Notes under the pieces: generated by a model
Databases searched by the model: none
What the model saw: only the letters and a program-made list of their open reading frames with translations
Told to the model about the DNA's origin: nothing
Origin: a virus
Direction: 5' to 3' (one strand)
DNA: 20,863 bases
IMG/VR virus record: IMGVR_UViG_3300005082_000007
Location: 1-20,863 of that record
Translations under genes and position numbers: made by a program
Shown here: positions 11,744 through 20,166 of the stretch, piece after piece
Position numbering within the stretch: position 1 is the stretch's first letter
Layout: every line of letters begins with the position of its first letter

Positions 11744-11950
11744 TCAGACTCTCAGGCAGGCATCCGCCGTCCTGATATCGTTATATATATTGTCCAGAAA
11801 TCCATACAGCCCGGCAATGCCCTCCCGGGACAGATACACCTTTTCTTCATGCTCTATGCACGCCACGATATCGGCCAGGCACCGCACCTTCACCGCGACA
11901 TTCTCCAGGAGGTCCATGGCGGTGAGGCTCTCTTTGTCTCTGGGGCTCAT
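11744..11950 (-). CDS. Hypothetical 68-aa protein coupled to the Bro-N gene
   Basis: A 68-residue protein starting MSPRDKESLTAMDLLENV. Its ATG overlaps the Bro-N gene's stop as ATGA, so translation is coupled, and an intrinsic terminator follows the stop within a few bases; both support a real gene. The sequence is predicted to be mainly helical (LLENVAVKVRCLADIVACIEH and GIAGLYGFLDNIYNDIRTADAC), with three cysteines, no membrane span and no known motif that I recognise. It is co-expressed with the Bro-N regulator and could be its partner or a small inhibitor; nothing in the sequence shows this directly. Confidence 0.65.
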   Translation of the reverse strand: MSPRDKESLTAMDLLENVAVKVRCLADIVACIEHEEKVYLSREGIAGLYGFLDNIYNDIRTADACLRV

Positions 11951-12654
11951 TCTGCACCGCCTTCCGGATCCTGCTTCCGATCCTGGTCTATATGTTTGAA
12001 CTGATCTGGGTAACGCCGCCTTAAGGTCTCATTCTCCAGGCGATAGATCTGGAGCTCTCCTTCAAGCAGCATCAGCCGGAAAGATATACAATCCGGCTTA
12101 ATGCCCAGCTCCGCCATTTTTTTCAGCGTGGAGGAGACAAAGCGGGAGCTTTTGCAGATCACCCGGGCGGTCTCTGCGTTGGTAAGATCCATATCCTTGC
12201 ACCGTTTGATCTTTGCCCAGTATGGGGTTTGGGCCAGAACGGTATCCTTCAGGCTCTTGTTTTGGTCTTTGAGCTTGCGCATCTGCTGCAGGGTATATTC
12301 GTAGTTGCCTTCCATGATCTCCACAGATTTCCCCATGGTGTATGATCCTGTTTTTCTTATGGCGGGTAGAACTTCGCTTGTAACCCATTTTCTAAATTGT
12401 TTTGCTTCTGGTTTGTTTGATCTGATAATGAGCGTGTAAAGACCGGATTCATTAATGATCCCAAGGCTCCCACCGCGGTCTAACAAAACGTTAGACCGCT
12501 CATCGTCATCAAGATGATCAGATATAGTTTTACTGGGGTTAGAATATCCCAAAGCTTCACATACATCTTTTGCCACAAACCAAGGTTCTCCTGCTTCGTC
12601 TGTGAGCGTTCTTACATCGCTGTTCTTGAATTGAAACTTCTTAATTTCGTTCAT
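11947..12654 (-). CDS. Bro-N antirepressor-like regulator (235 aa)
   Basis: The protein starts MNEIKKFQFKNSDVRTLTD with a Shine-Dalgarno GAGGAG six bases upstream. Residues 5-104 are a Bro-N domain: 'GEPWFVAKDVCEALGYSNPSK' (22-42), 'LDDDERSNVLLDRGG' (48-62), 'IINESGLYTLIIRSNKPEAKQF' (66-87) and 'WVTSEVLPAIRKTGSY' (90-105). Residues 115-140 are a short coiled coil. Residues 155-185 (DLTNAETARVICKSSRFVSSTLKKMAELG) look like a helix-turn-helix, and the rest is a charged helix. Bro-N proteins bind DNA and often act as phage antirepressors. It is the main gene between mor and the late operon, where Mu has activator C, so a role in the late switch is a reasonable inference. No C-type (Mor-fold) second gene is present. 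Confidence 0.85.
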   Translation of the reverse strand: MNEIKKFQFKNSDVRTLTDEAGEPWFVAKDVCEALGYSNPSKTISDHLDDDERSNVLLDRGGSLGIINESGLYTLIIRSNKPEAKQFRKWVTSEVLPAIRKTGSYTMGKSVEIMEGNYEYTLQQMRKLKDQNKSLKDTVLAQTPYWAKIKRCKDMDLTNAETARVICKSSRFVSSTLKKMAELGIKPDCISFRLMLLEGELQIYRLENETLRRRYPDQFKHIDQDRKQDPEGGAE

Positions 12655-12706
12655 GATAGACTCCTCTTATAAATTTTGAAAAAATACGCCTGATTCGCTT
12701 CCAAAC

Positions 12707-12783
12707 AAAAAAGGCGGGCTGATTGGGTTGGAAGACCGGCTAAGAGGCAACCGGCGGGCTAAAGGCCCCCCGCACAGCCCGCC
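12707..12783 (-). promoter_or_regulatory. Attenuator-like leader with two alternative hairpins before the Bro-N gene
   Basis: On the minus strand GGCGGGCTG (12783-12775) pairs perfectly with CAGCCCGCC (12721-12713), followed by TTTTTT (12712-12707): a terminator with a long loop. The same 5' arm can pair instead with AGCCCGCC at 12760-12753, eight bases, which would free the distal arm and break the terminator. Between them CCGG (12754-12751) and CCGG (12739-12736) can close a small hairpin with an 11-base loop, and this overlaps the middle arm by two bases. Mutually exclusive arms ahead of a T run are the form of a transcription attenuator. It ends 52 bases before the Bro-N start. No known riboswitch class was recognised. 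Confidence 0.6.
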
Positions 12784-12816
12784 CGAAAAGTCATAAGGGA
12801 GGGATGTTACGCAGAC

Positions 12817-12840
12817 AAAAAAACCGCCATAAACGGCGGT
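12817..12840 (-). terminator. Strong intrinsic terminator downstream of mor
   Basis: On the minus strand ACCGCC-GTTTAT-GGCGGT is a perfect six-base-pair GC-rich hairpin followed by a run of T (seven in total, counting the last stem base). It would stop both the early transcript through mor and any transcript from the promoter at 12905-12934. Confidence 0.88.
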
Positions 12841-12898
12841 CTGTCATCCGCCTCTTAAATCGGGCTTCCAAACCCGGCCCAGTGATTTTGCACCGGAC
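12817..12898 (-). ncRNA. Candidate short structured RNA between mor and its terminator
   Basis: A near-consensus promoter starts transcription near 12898 and the terminator ends it near 12817, giving an RNA of about 80 bases. Inside are a 5' CTGTC / GACAG closing stem (12900-12896 with 12845-12841), a hairpin CGGGTT-UGGA-AGCCCG type (about 12867-12882; GC stem with one G.U), and an open linker holding TAAGAGGC (12857-12850). A possible ORF with start ATG at 12847 (MTDRRLWRFF) is encoded by the terminator hairpin itself and is probably not a gene. No tRNA, tmRNA or known phage RNA family fits. The RNA is predicted from sequence only. Confidence 0.5.
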
Positions 12899-12904
12899 AG
12901 GGTA

Positions 12905-12934
12905 ACTATACGCATTATCAAAATTTTCTGTCAA
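12905..12934 (-). promoter_or_regulatory. Sigma70-type promoter just after mor
   Basis: TTGACA (12934-12929), an 18-base spacer, then TATAGT (12910-12905). The -35 matches consensus at all six positions and the -10 at five. It begins seven bases after the mor stop. A Mor-dependent middle promoter would be expected here, but Mor-type promoters usually lack a good -35, so this one should work without an activator. Confidence 0.72.
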
Positions 12935-12941
12935 CATAATT

Positions 12942-13253
12942 TTAAAACAACTCCCGCTGGGTCTCGCGCACCGGCACCCGTCGCCGGCGCTCAGCCTTGA
13001 CAATCTGCCGGATCCTGGACTCGGACAGCCCATACTTAACAGCCACCCGCTTATAGTTGCCGCAAGCTCGGAAATCATCATACATCTGCCTGTAAATAAA
13101 CTTCCGGGCCAGCGTATCCAGCTTAGGCACATACAACTGACAACCCGCAAACCCATCCACCAGAGCCAGGGCCGCTTTAAGCCCGATCCGTTCGGCCACA
13201 TCCCGGTACTCATCCGGCAGGTCATCAAGTTGTATGTCGTCTGGGTTGATCAT
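12942..13253 (-). CDS. mor: Mor-family transcription activator of middle genes
   Basis: A 103-residue protein starting MINPDDIQLDDLP. The Mor/C family pattern is clear: 'LPDEYRDVAERIGLKAALALVDGFAGCQLYVPKLD' (residues 12-46), in which the dimerisation helices are followed by the beta strand 'QLYVP', and a C-terminal helix-turn-helix 'GNYKRVAVKYGLSESRIRQIVKAE' (residues 65-88). Mu Mor binds upstream of the middle promoter and recruits RNA polymerase. The gene is last in the early operon, as in Mu, and is followed by the switch region. The start has no strong Shine-Dalgarno; its ATG lies inside a short upstream frame (13293-13225), so expression may depend on coupled translation. Length is slightly under Mu Mor (129). 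Confidence 0.9.
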   Translation of the reverse strand: MINPDDIQLDDLPDEYRDVAERIGLKAALALVDGFAGCQLYVPKLDTLARKFIYRQMYDDFRACGNYKRVAVKYGLSESRIRQIVKAERRRRVPVRETQRELF

Positions 13254-17812: not shown

Positions 17813-19966
17813 TTAATTATTATTACCAAATATCATCTTTAAATCTTCATACCGTTGCCGAGAGCCTTCAAATGCAGAACTGCGTTCAAATTCAGCCATA
17901 AAGCGTTGATCATCAGCGTCAGCTTCCATGCCGTGTTCATGAACCAGCCTAAAGCACCACTCATAGCGCTCAAGCTCTGATTTCCAGTACGTTGGCCTGT
18001 GAATTTCCGGTTCCTCAGCCATTTCAATTTCTGCTTTTTCAACCAGAGCAACCAGCCGCTTAGCCTCTGCTTCAGATACCTTCTCAGGCTCTTGAGTCTC
18101 GGCCTTTTTTCCGTCATTTCCCGGCACGGGCAGCAACGGCGTTTTTTCTTTGGGAATGGAAACGTCTATGGAAGCGAGATATTGGCTTTGTGATTCTCCA
18201 TTAAGGCCGGCCAGCTGGGTAAGCTGTTTCTTGGCATTTTTAACCACCCGTTGCTGGCGCTTTATCTCGCTTTCAACCTGTTCAACCGACGCCTGATCCC
18301 CGAACAGATTGGCAATGGGATGACACGCCCGCACAGGGTATGCCTCCCCCATATAAATTCCGTCCGTTGTCCAGCACCAAATCCGGCTCAGATCCGCCGT
18401 ATCCACCCGGGCAATGGCTTCAAAATTGAGTTTCAGGTTGTCAAACGCATCTGATTCATAATCAATTTTCCAGAGCACGGCCCGTCCCCTGCGGATATGG
18501 ATCTTCACAGGAATCAGGAAATCCAGATGAAGCTGGGACGGATCAAGTCCAGGACCCCGACCGGCCATCAGTCGTTCCATGGGGGAGAACTGCAGATCCG
18601 TATGAGGCTGCATGGCATACCATTGAATATACTGCTCAACAATCACCGCTGCTTCCCGGATGGTGGGCACCCGCCCCCCGGTCTGGAGCTGGTGAATCTT
18701 CTGATGATATTTTTCGTTTCGATGCAGCCGGGCCGGCTTGGTATCAATGGAATCCCCGCAAAAGGATGAAAGCTGGGATTCAAGCTGGTCCTGGAATGTA
18801 TTGAAGAACCGCTCCACCACCTTGGCCCGCCCATTGTATGGCTTGGCATGAAATACCGCTGTCCCCACCCGGGCGTACAGGCCGTTCATCTCTTCAAAAT
18901 CCAGATCCAGGCCTGCCCCTTTGAACAGTTTGGCCTTAAACGCCCGGCCATTATCCAGGTACACGCTGTCCGGATACCGACCCAGGGCCATGCACGCATT
19001 GCGGAATGCTCCAAGGATCACCCACTGATTTTCCGTTGGCGCAATCTGCCAGCCCAGCGGGTACCTTGATTTCCAGTCAAAAAACACAATAAGGGTCATG
19101 CGGCAGGGCATGCCGGTTTCAGGATGGAGAATCGTGAAGTTCAGCGTTTTGCCGTCAGCCACCAGGCATTGGCCCACCTCAAGCAATTCAGGATCACGGG
19201 TGATATACCGGGCAAACTTATCCTTGTAAGCCTTCTCACCCTCCCGGGCCAGGCAGATCACCCCGGCGTTGTAGGTCTCATAGTCCTTGAGCCACCGCCT
19301 GAACGTGCTTTCACCCGGCTTTTCATCCAGGCCGGCTTTTTCAAGGGCATGCCAGGTCCCACGAATGGACATAATCACGCTGGGCCGCTCCTGGCGCAGA
19401 TAGCACCGCAGGAAGAACGCCTTGGCAGCCTCTGAGAGCTGCCGTTCCTTGTACTTGGTTGTTCCGTGCTTTTTCCACCCGCCGCGCCCATCACACAGAC
19501 AAAGGTAATCGTCGTTATGCTTTGCAAGCTTCTTATCCAGGGCCTCAAGGGTTTTAAGCTGGATATCTCCCACAACCTCAAAAACCTTTGGCATAAGCAC
19601 ACCGGCATTGTATGCCAGCAGGAAATCCGCCGCAGCTTCACCTTTGCGACCCCACCCGGCCCGCTCCTTGGCCACCCGAAATGCATGCACCAGGTTATAC
19701 TTGGCCAGGCCGATCTGTTTTGACCGCTTTGGCACAGCCGTATCATGTACCAAAGCCGGGAGTCCGGACTGGTTCACAGACCGACGATCAACCAGGGCCT
19801 GTTTCACCTCCACCGGCAGCATATCCGCAAAATAAAATCGCTCAGACCCGCCCTGTTTCTTTTTCTCCTTAACCGGCCACGCGTTCTTTACGGCCCGAAG
19901 CTGCACCGCCTTGGTGGTGACGCCCAGGGCGTCGGATATCTGTGATTCTGCGACAAATGCATTCAT
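17813..19966 (-). CDS. muA: MuA-type DDE transposase
   Basis: The open frame begins at 19984, but the ATG at 19966 fits better: it overlaps the preceding stop as ATGA and aligns with the start of the small paralogue. Length is then 717 residues (Mu A is 663). Residues 1-60 hold the Mu-type winged helix (MNAFVAESQISDALGVT and QGGSERFYF, with MLPVEVK). The catalytic core has DDE residues Asp271 (VADGKTL), Asp338 (YLDNGRAF) and Glu385 (KVVERFF), with spacing close to Mu's. Residues 440-550 are a beta-barrel domain, and the C-terminus is helical and acidic, as expected for the MuB/ClpX contact region. It binds the phage ends, joins them to target DNA and drives replication by transposition. Confidence 0.95.
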   Translation of the reverse strand: MNAFVAESQISDALGVTTKAVQLRAVKNAWPVKEKKKQGGSERFYFADMLPVEVKQALVDRRSVNQSGLPALVHDTAVPKRSKQIGLAKYNLVHAFRVAKERAGWGRKGEAAADFLLAYNAGVLMPKVFEVVGDIQLKTLEALDKKLAKHNDDYLCLCDGRGGWKKHGTTKYKERQLSEAAKAFFLRCYLRQERPSVIMSIRGTWHALEKAGLDEKPGESTFRRWLKDYETYNAGVICLAREGEKAYKDKFARYITRDPELLEVGQCLVADGKTLNFTILHPETGMPCRMTLIVFFDWKSRYPLGWQIAPTENQWVILGAFRNACMALGRYPDSVYLDNGRAFKAKLFKGAGLDLDFEEMNGLYARVGTAVFHAKPYNGRAKVVERFFNTFQDQLESQLSSFCGDSIDTKPARLHRNEKYHQKIHQLQTGGRVPTIREAAVIVEQYIQWYAMQPHTDLQFSPMERLMAGRGPGLDPSQLHLDFLIPVKIHIRRGRAVLWKIDYESDAFDNLKLNFEAIARVDTADLSRIWCWTTDGIYMGEAYPVRACHPIANLFGDQASVEQVESEIKRQQRVVKNAKKQLTQLAGLNGESQSQYLASIDVSIPKEKTPLLPVPGNDGKKAETQEPEKVSEAEAKRLVALVEKAEIEMAEEPEIHRPTYWKSELERYEWCFRLVHEHGMEADADDQRFMAEFERSSAFEGSRQRYEDLKMIFGNNN

Positions 19967-20166
19967 GACCGTTGCCTGTTCCATTCTTCAGCGATTCGCG
20001 CCTTTACCTCATCCGGGAGCAGATCAAACACATAAAACCGTTTACTGCCGCCTTGAACCGTTCTTCTAACCACCGTCCAATCCTCTTTTTCAGCCCGTAG
20101 CTGGACAGATCTGGTGCTGACGGATAAAGCCACCGACAATTCAAATTCTGATATTAAAGCGCCCAT
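19963..20166 (-). CDS. Stand-alone Mu-type N-terminal DNA-binding protein (67 aa)
   Basis: A 67-residue protein starting MGALISEFELSVALSVSTRSVQL, with GGAGAC before the ATG. Over its first 57 residues it matches the transposase N-terminus at about half of positions (shared words VQLRA, QGGS, RFY, LP-EVK), so it is a free copy of the HTH_Tnp_Mu_1 winged helix. The same domain in Mu A binds the internal enhancer and in the Mu repressor binds operators. A free copy could compete with the transposase, or act as a Ner-like negative regulator of the early promoter. It lies in the position of ner (just before A) and overlaps the transposase start by four bases. Confidence 0.85.
   Translation of the reverse strand: MGALISEFELSVALSVSTRSVQLRAEKEDWTVVRRTVQGGSKRFYVFDLLPDEVKARIAEEWNRQRS

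Follow-up and report, generated by a model that had tools for sequence, protein, structure and literature searches.

The window, by which we mean the whole stretch of 20,863 nucleotides analysed here, comes from a Mu-like phage of sulphate-reducing bacteria. On its minus strand, and downstream of the mor gene, we found a promoter, a short leader RNA that ends in an intrinsic terminator, a match to C4 antisense RNA, and a gene that, as predicted from its domains, is an antirepressor gene; lysis genes follow downstream (Table 1). The small ORF of 68 aa at 11744..11950 presented no family match in Pfam or PHROG.

Table 1. Features of the locus in order of transcription, with the evidence for each one
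Feature	Position	Strand	Evidence
mor, Mor transcription activator (context, upstream)	12942..13253	-	Pfam Mor, E 2e-14; mor ORF ends at 12942
Promoter, TTGACA-18-TATAGT	12905..12934	-	11 of 12 matches; same promoter in L014
Short leader RNA, isrK / c4-a1b1 homologue, ~82 nt	12817..12898	-	Rfam RF01394, RF03163; fold
a1, TTGGAAG, complementary to a' of C4	12865..12871	-	Pairing, coevolution
b1, TTAAGAGGCGG, complementary to b' loop of C4	12848..12858	-	Pairing
Intrinsic terminator, stem-loop 12842-12821 plus T run	12817..12842	-	T5 run before C4 in 62 of 65 loci
C4 antisense RNA	12712..12789	-	RF01695; fold -42.5 kcal/mol
b' loop of C4, TTGCCTCTTAG	12740..12750	-	Pairing
a' segment of C4, CTTCCAACCC	12725..12734	-	Pairing
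a2, TTGGAAG, upstream of the Bro-N gene	12698..12704	-	Pairing
b2, TAAGAGG, overlaps the Bro-N Shine-Dalgarno sequence	12663..12669	-	Pairing
Antirepressor with Bro-N domain, the controlled gene	11947..12654	-	Pfam Bro-N, E 2.4e-29; PHROG anti-repressor Ant, E 1.7e-49
Small ORF, 68 aa, overlaps the end of the antirepressor gene	11744..11950	-	Similar 71 aa ORF after the L014 antirepressor

At the transcription level, the promoter consists of a -35 TTGACA starting at 12934, an 18-base spacer, and a -10 TATAGT ending at 12905, and it begins seven bases past the mor stop, as an earlier sequence-only reading of the window had it. No other site in the window, whichever the strand, reaches 11 of 12 matches (0.12 such sites per strand in shuffles). 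The terminator is formed by the hairpin AGACCGCC-GTTTAT-GGCGGTTT (12842-12821) and a T run that reaches 12817. The same reading described a perfect hairpin with a T run that ended 71 bases after the start of transcription: the hairpin and the T run were borne out, but the stem contains one G-U pair and the distance from 12898 to 12817 is about 82 bases. The leader RNA measures about 82 bases (fold of -31.9 kcal/mol, z -2.4); the same reading gave its length as about 80 bases. Counts of promoter-like and terminator-like sites across the region showed no excess over shuffles. Thus, the promoter and the terminator alone prove nothing, and independent evidence was needed.

For the leader RNA, the isrK family (RF01394) matched exactly the positions 12898-12817, using the full length of the model (1-77) with 51.0 bits against a cut-off of 50. 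This exact span, together with a layout that is conserved across C4 loci, is why we judge the short RNA to be real. The c4-a1b1 family (RF03163) matched 12911-12857 with 35.1 bits, below the curated cut-off of 46.7 (E 2.9e-7 in a permissive search of 501 bases). C4 (RF01695) matched 12789-12712 with 42.8 bits, also below its curated cut-off of 45 (E 6.3e-7 for all families in 501 bases). The C4 sequence begins 27 bases past the end of the short RNA and folds as three helices; the loop of the third one holds b', and a' lies in the joining strand. The suggestion of a small regulatory RNA made from the letters alone was supported, by Rfam as well as by the pairing and control results below, and the leader RNA is the isrK / c4-a1b1 element of a C4 antisense module. 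An orphan novel small RNA was rejected because of the isrK and C4 matches. DNA similarity searches against phages and plasmids found nothing.

The pairing potential links all these parts. The b' loop TTGCCTCTTAG is complementary over 11 bases to b1 (TTAAGAGGCGG) of the short RNA, and over 7 bases to b2 (TAAGAGG) at the Shine-Dalgarno sequence of the Bro-N gene. The a' segment CTTCCAACCC is complementary to TTGGAAG, which occurs twice: as a1 in the short RNA, and as a2 at 44 to 50 bases 5' of the Bro-N start codon. Both C4 loops are hence fitted by four target sites, a1 and b1 upstream and a2 and b2 downstream, with b2 lying over the ribosome-binding site.

The same arrangement was found in contig L014, whose Mor is 84% identical to that of the window. 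The promoter, the leader, the terminator, and C4 (44.6 bits, with the RF01695 cut-off at 45) are all shared with the window, and the loops differ. In L014, b' is GCCTTGTGG and pairs with b1 (CACAGGGC) and with the Shine-Dalgarno sequence CACAAGG, and a' is GTTGCGA and pairs with a1 (TCGCAAC) and a2 (TCGCGAC). All four pairings were preserved despite the changed loops.

The L014 antirepressor carries an N-terminal Rha domain instead of Bro-N, while its C-terminal half is conserved and the RNA module is kept. The C-terminal halves of the two antirepressors (window 11947-12654 and L014:4582-5313) share 53% identity, with the N-terminal domains swapped. With Rha or Bro-N on a common C-terminal half, the N-terminal domain of the protein changed while the RNA switch stayed. 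Protein scans with the C-terminal half of the antirepressor retrieved the L014 contig as the only match.

We then considered C4 loci from a broader set of genomes. C4 matches were present in 12 of 291 genomes drawn from Desulfobacterales (the order of the L019 host), at 28 places, and 27 of the 29 loci of a first test paired best with their own C4. The first loci were joined with P1, Gifsy-1, L190, and viral contigs into a set of 65 loci with distinct loops. The mean cognate pairing score was 37.0 upstream (permutation mean of 28.9, z = 22) and 38.0 downstream (permutation mean of 27.7, z = 25), with best-match selection applied equally to the non-cognate pairs; C4 loci share descent, so z overstates their independence. 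The cognate pairing was the best one in 56 of the 65 loci.

The layout was also conserved. A T5 run lay within 70 bases 5' of C4 in 62 of the 65 loci, compared to 3 of 65 for the preceding 70 bases and 12 of 65 for the 70 bases after the C4 region. The exact TTGACA was found at the promoter position in 29 of the 65 loci and in none of the control. Thus, C4 modules in general appear to include a terminated leader RNA.

Some Desulfobacterales genomes harbor several modules: four to eight C4 loci per genome were found among L025-L052 (genomes G090, G030, and G127), many of them before Bro-N genes and most of them with loop sequences of their own. This suggests sets of mutually insulated immunities. 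At L034:1501-2800, C4 and its target sites lie directly 5' of an ORF that, judged by eye, resembles a tyrosine integrase. C4 control may therefore extend to genes besides antirepressors.

Among the closest known systems is the immI region of P1/P7 (RF01695, RF03163), where the parts follow one another as in the window: a promoter, then a1 and b1, a hairpin resembling a terminator with its T run, C4, a2 and b2, and an antirepressor operon. The P1 record annotates the order a1, b1, c4, a2, b2, icd, ant1. Used as a control, P1 gave 68.8 bits for C4 and 35.1 bits for an isrK-like match, with C4 25 bases after isrK. Counted from the Rfam C4 match, the starts of a1 and b1 lie at -82/-68 in P1 and at -82/-69 in the window, and the upstream-side spacing agrees within a few bases. 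The differences are that icd sits between b2 and ant1 in P1, whereas b2 in the window is the antirepressor's own Shine-Dalgarno sequence, and that P1 is a plasmid prophage and the window a Mu-like phage, with C4 and c4-a1b1 scores below the Rfam cut-offs. According to the work cited in PMC5320573, RNase P excises the C4 RNA of P1/P7, and this RNA masks the target ribosome-binding site.

The Gifsy-1 system of IsrK, STnc1160, and anrP (RF01394) also has a whole-model isrK followed by C4 and the antirepressor gene. It differs in having AnrP where the window has the Bro-N domain, and no antQ was identified beside the window module, unlike in Gifsy-1. The Gifsy-1 control gave 79.3 bits for isrK. 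On the minus strand of the Gifsy-1 record (34316-34131; L072/L074), C4 scored above its cut-off with 69.0 bits, 25 bases past isrK. A C4 RNA thus lies within the region reported as orf45/STnc1160, a fact that the IsrK paper (PMC4825925) does not mention; neither "C4 RNA" nor "C4 antisense" appears in it. In Gifsy-1, part of the transcripts read through the isrK terminator, and this readthrough mRNA is translationally silent (PMC4825925). Short IsrK supplied in trans raised anrP translation more than a hundredfold and transcription only 8-fold, and STnc1160 is a stable RNA behind the isrK terminator and complementary to IsrK (PMC4825925).

We consider that the locus is most probably a C4-type antisense RNA immunity module that controls the antirepressor and that was inserted, in a Mu-like phage, between mor and the lysis genes. 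What the computations show directly is that all the parts are present, how they are ordered and spaced, that they are complementary, and that loops and targets coevolve; we infer the working of the module from the related systems. The promoter at 12934-12905 would fire constitutively or under the control of the phage repressor, and most transcripts would end at the terminator, giving the 82-nt a1-b1 RNA. Readthrough transcripts would carry the Bro-N gene and the C4 RNA, the latter probably excised by RNase P. C4 would then bind a2 through a' and b2, the Bro-N Shine-Dalgarno sequence, through b', stopping translation of the antirepressor, so that the lysogen would remain stable and immune. The short RNA, with copies of both target sites, could titrate C4 in trans and lift the block as IsrK does in Gifsy-1, and the Bro-N protein would inactivate the phage repressor. 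Silencing by C4 and titration by the short RNA would follow from the masking reported for P1/P7 and the trans-activation reported for IsrK. Taken alone, the decoy action of the short RNA is moderately probable, and its direction would be the one seen in Gifsy-1, the single system from which we take it.

The same C4 module could also work with its leader mainly as a target for transcription attenuation, with C4 on a1 and b1 promoting termination before ant, like CI and seqA in the satellite phage P4. As summarised in PMC4825925, the CI RNA of P4 is likewise an antisense RNA made by processing, and its transcript has complementary sites, seqA and seqC, to either side of it; the P4 system controls transcription termination of replication genes, whereas the candidate target in the window is antirepressor translation. 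No Rfam match to P4 CI RNA was found in the window region. The position of a1 and b1 directly 5' of the terminator and the T run found 5' of C4 in nearly all loci would fit attenuation, and IsrK has been compared with P4 seqA/CI and control of termination raised (PMC4825925). Against the main reading stand the C4 and c4-a1b1 scores below the curated cut-offs and the small cofolding gains, which also keep attenuation in play: only 5.6 kcal/mol for the mature short RNA with C4 and 0.9 in L014, in a model that excludes loop-loop contacts. C4 with the ant leader showed no gain under the same model. Since kissing loops are absent from it, these energies are weak evidence. In the window, b1 is clear of the terminator stem (12848 vs. 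12842), and the effect of extra short IsrK in Gifsy-1, on translation far more than on transcription, is the one expected of a decoy. We find attenuation as the main role improbable, though worth keeping beside the decoy action of the short RNA.

A decayed and non-functional remnant of a C4 module would explain the C4 and a1b1 scores below the Rfam cut-offs, but it is very improbable: the six pairing elements, the promoter, the terminator, the Shine-Dalgarno sequence, and an intact antirepressor ORF are all kept, and the sequence changes that separate the window from L014 left the pairing intact.

The sequence-only reading had likened the locus to the lambda pR'/tR' unit, where a constitutive promoter and a terminator serve as a site for a late antiterminator. 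The strong promoter, the short RNA, and the terminator are shared and real, and lysis genes lie downstream, but this reading is hardly credible, because the pairing with C4 accounts for every conserved element, the promoter directly drives the antirepressor gene rather than a late operon with a Q-type activator, and close relatives with mor and the lysis genes lack the module. An antitermination role explains nothing further in the window, and no antiterminator gene was identified for this unit. Antitermination was thus rejected on the layout and on the absence in relatives. What stands of the likeness is that the promoter can express the downstream gene only by readthrough of the terminator, which was shown for IsrK in Gifsy-1 (PMC4825925); what falls is the antitermination, as a1 and b1 match the C4 loops and the antirepressor lies behind the terminator.

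Conservation in related phages, which the same reading had named as a check, was mixed: L014 keeps the module, while L015, L016, and L019 (a Desulfobacterales MAG) have mor and the lysis genes without it. The module is therefore an optional insert, and late expression does not need it. L190 is a different Mu-like phage, with relatives of MuA, MuB, GemA, and DUF3164, and it presents a complete C4 module past the early genes and immediately 5' of the lysis genes, with an ORF6N antirepressor. In this second Mu-like lineage (L190:1-2500) the module is followed by a small ORF and then by the ORF6N antirepressor, recalling icd-ant of P1. Neither isrK nor C4 matched in Mu, D3112, B3, BalMu-1, or RcapMu, nor in P22, where no C4 unit was found. 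The earlier statement that no such element is described in Mu-like phages fits these limited searches; the element as such had already been described in P1/P7 and Gifsy-1.

Thus, the novelty is the Mu-like setting of the C4 module, and its kind was already known. With it, Mu-like phages and Desulfobacterales join the carriers of a C4 antisense switch of the P1 type, and two separate literatures, those of IsrK and C4, are connected. IsrK would be the same element as c4-a1b1, and STnc1160 the same as C4, a recognition that would be new here. Within the open-access literature, a 2025 review (PMC12197685) lists both separately and does not draw the link, and Rfam lists isrK outside the C4 clan. 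A paper on Xylella contains a table with neighbouring Rfam matches of both isrK and C4.

More broadly, we give about even chances to a general picture in which the terminated a1-b1 RNA would be a built-in anti-antisense RNA of C4 modules generally, P1 included. IsrK/STnc1160 and a1b1/C4 would then be one system switched by the ratio of terminated to readthrough transcripts, and Mu-like phages would have acquired the module at least two times, just before the lysis genes. If this is true, a1 and b1 of P1, annotated merely as "putative" targets, would be decoys on their own terminated RNA.

Apart from the module, three minor observations were made. At L014:4202-4275, the mor gene and the promoter are separated by an inverted repeat (GGGGCAGGCCCCTGT...) that the window lacks; this repeat gives rise to chance matches to microRNAs and may represent a small insertion element. 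A group I intron match was found on the minus strand of another phage contig (L002:2560-2797), with 42 bits for a cut-off of 50. In the window, a small gene at 19963-20166 adjoins the MuA transposase gene and weakly resembles the N-terminal part of MuA (PHROG 310, E 9e-5).
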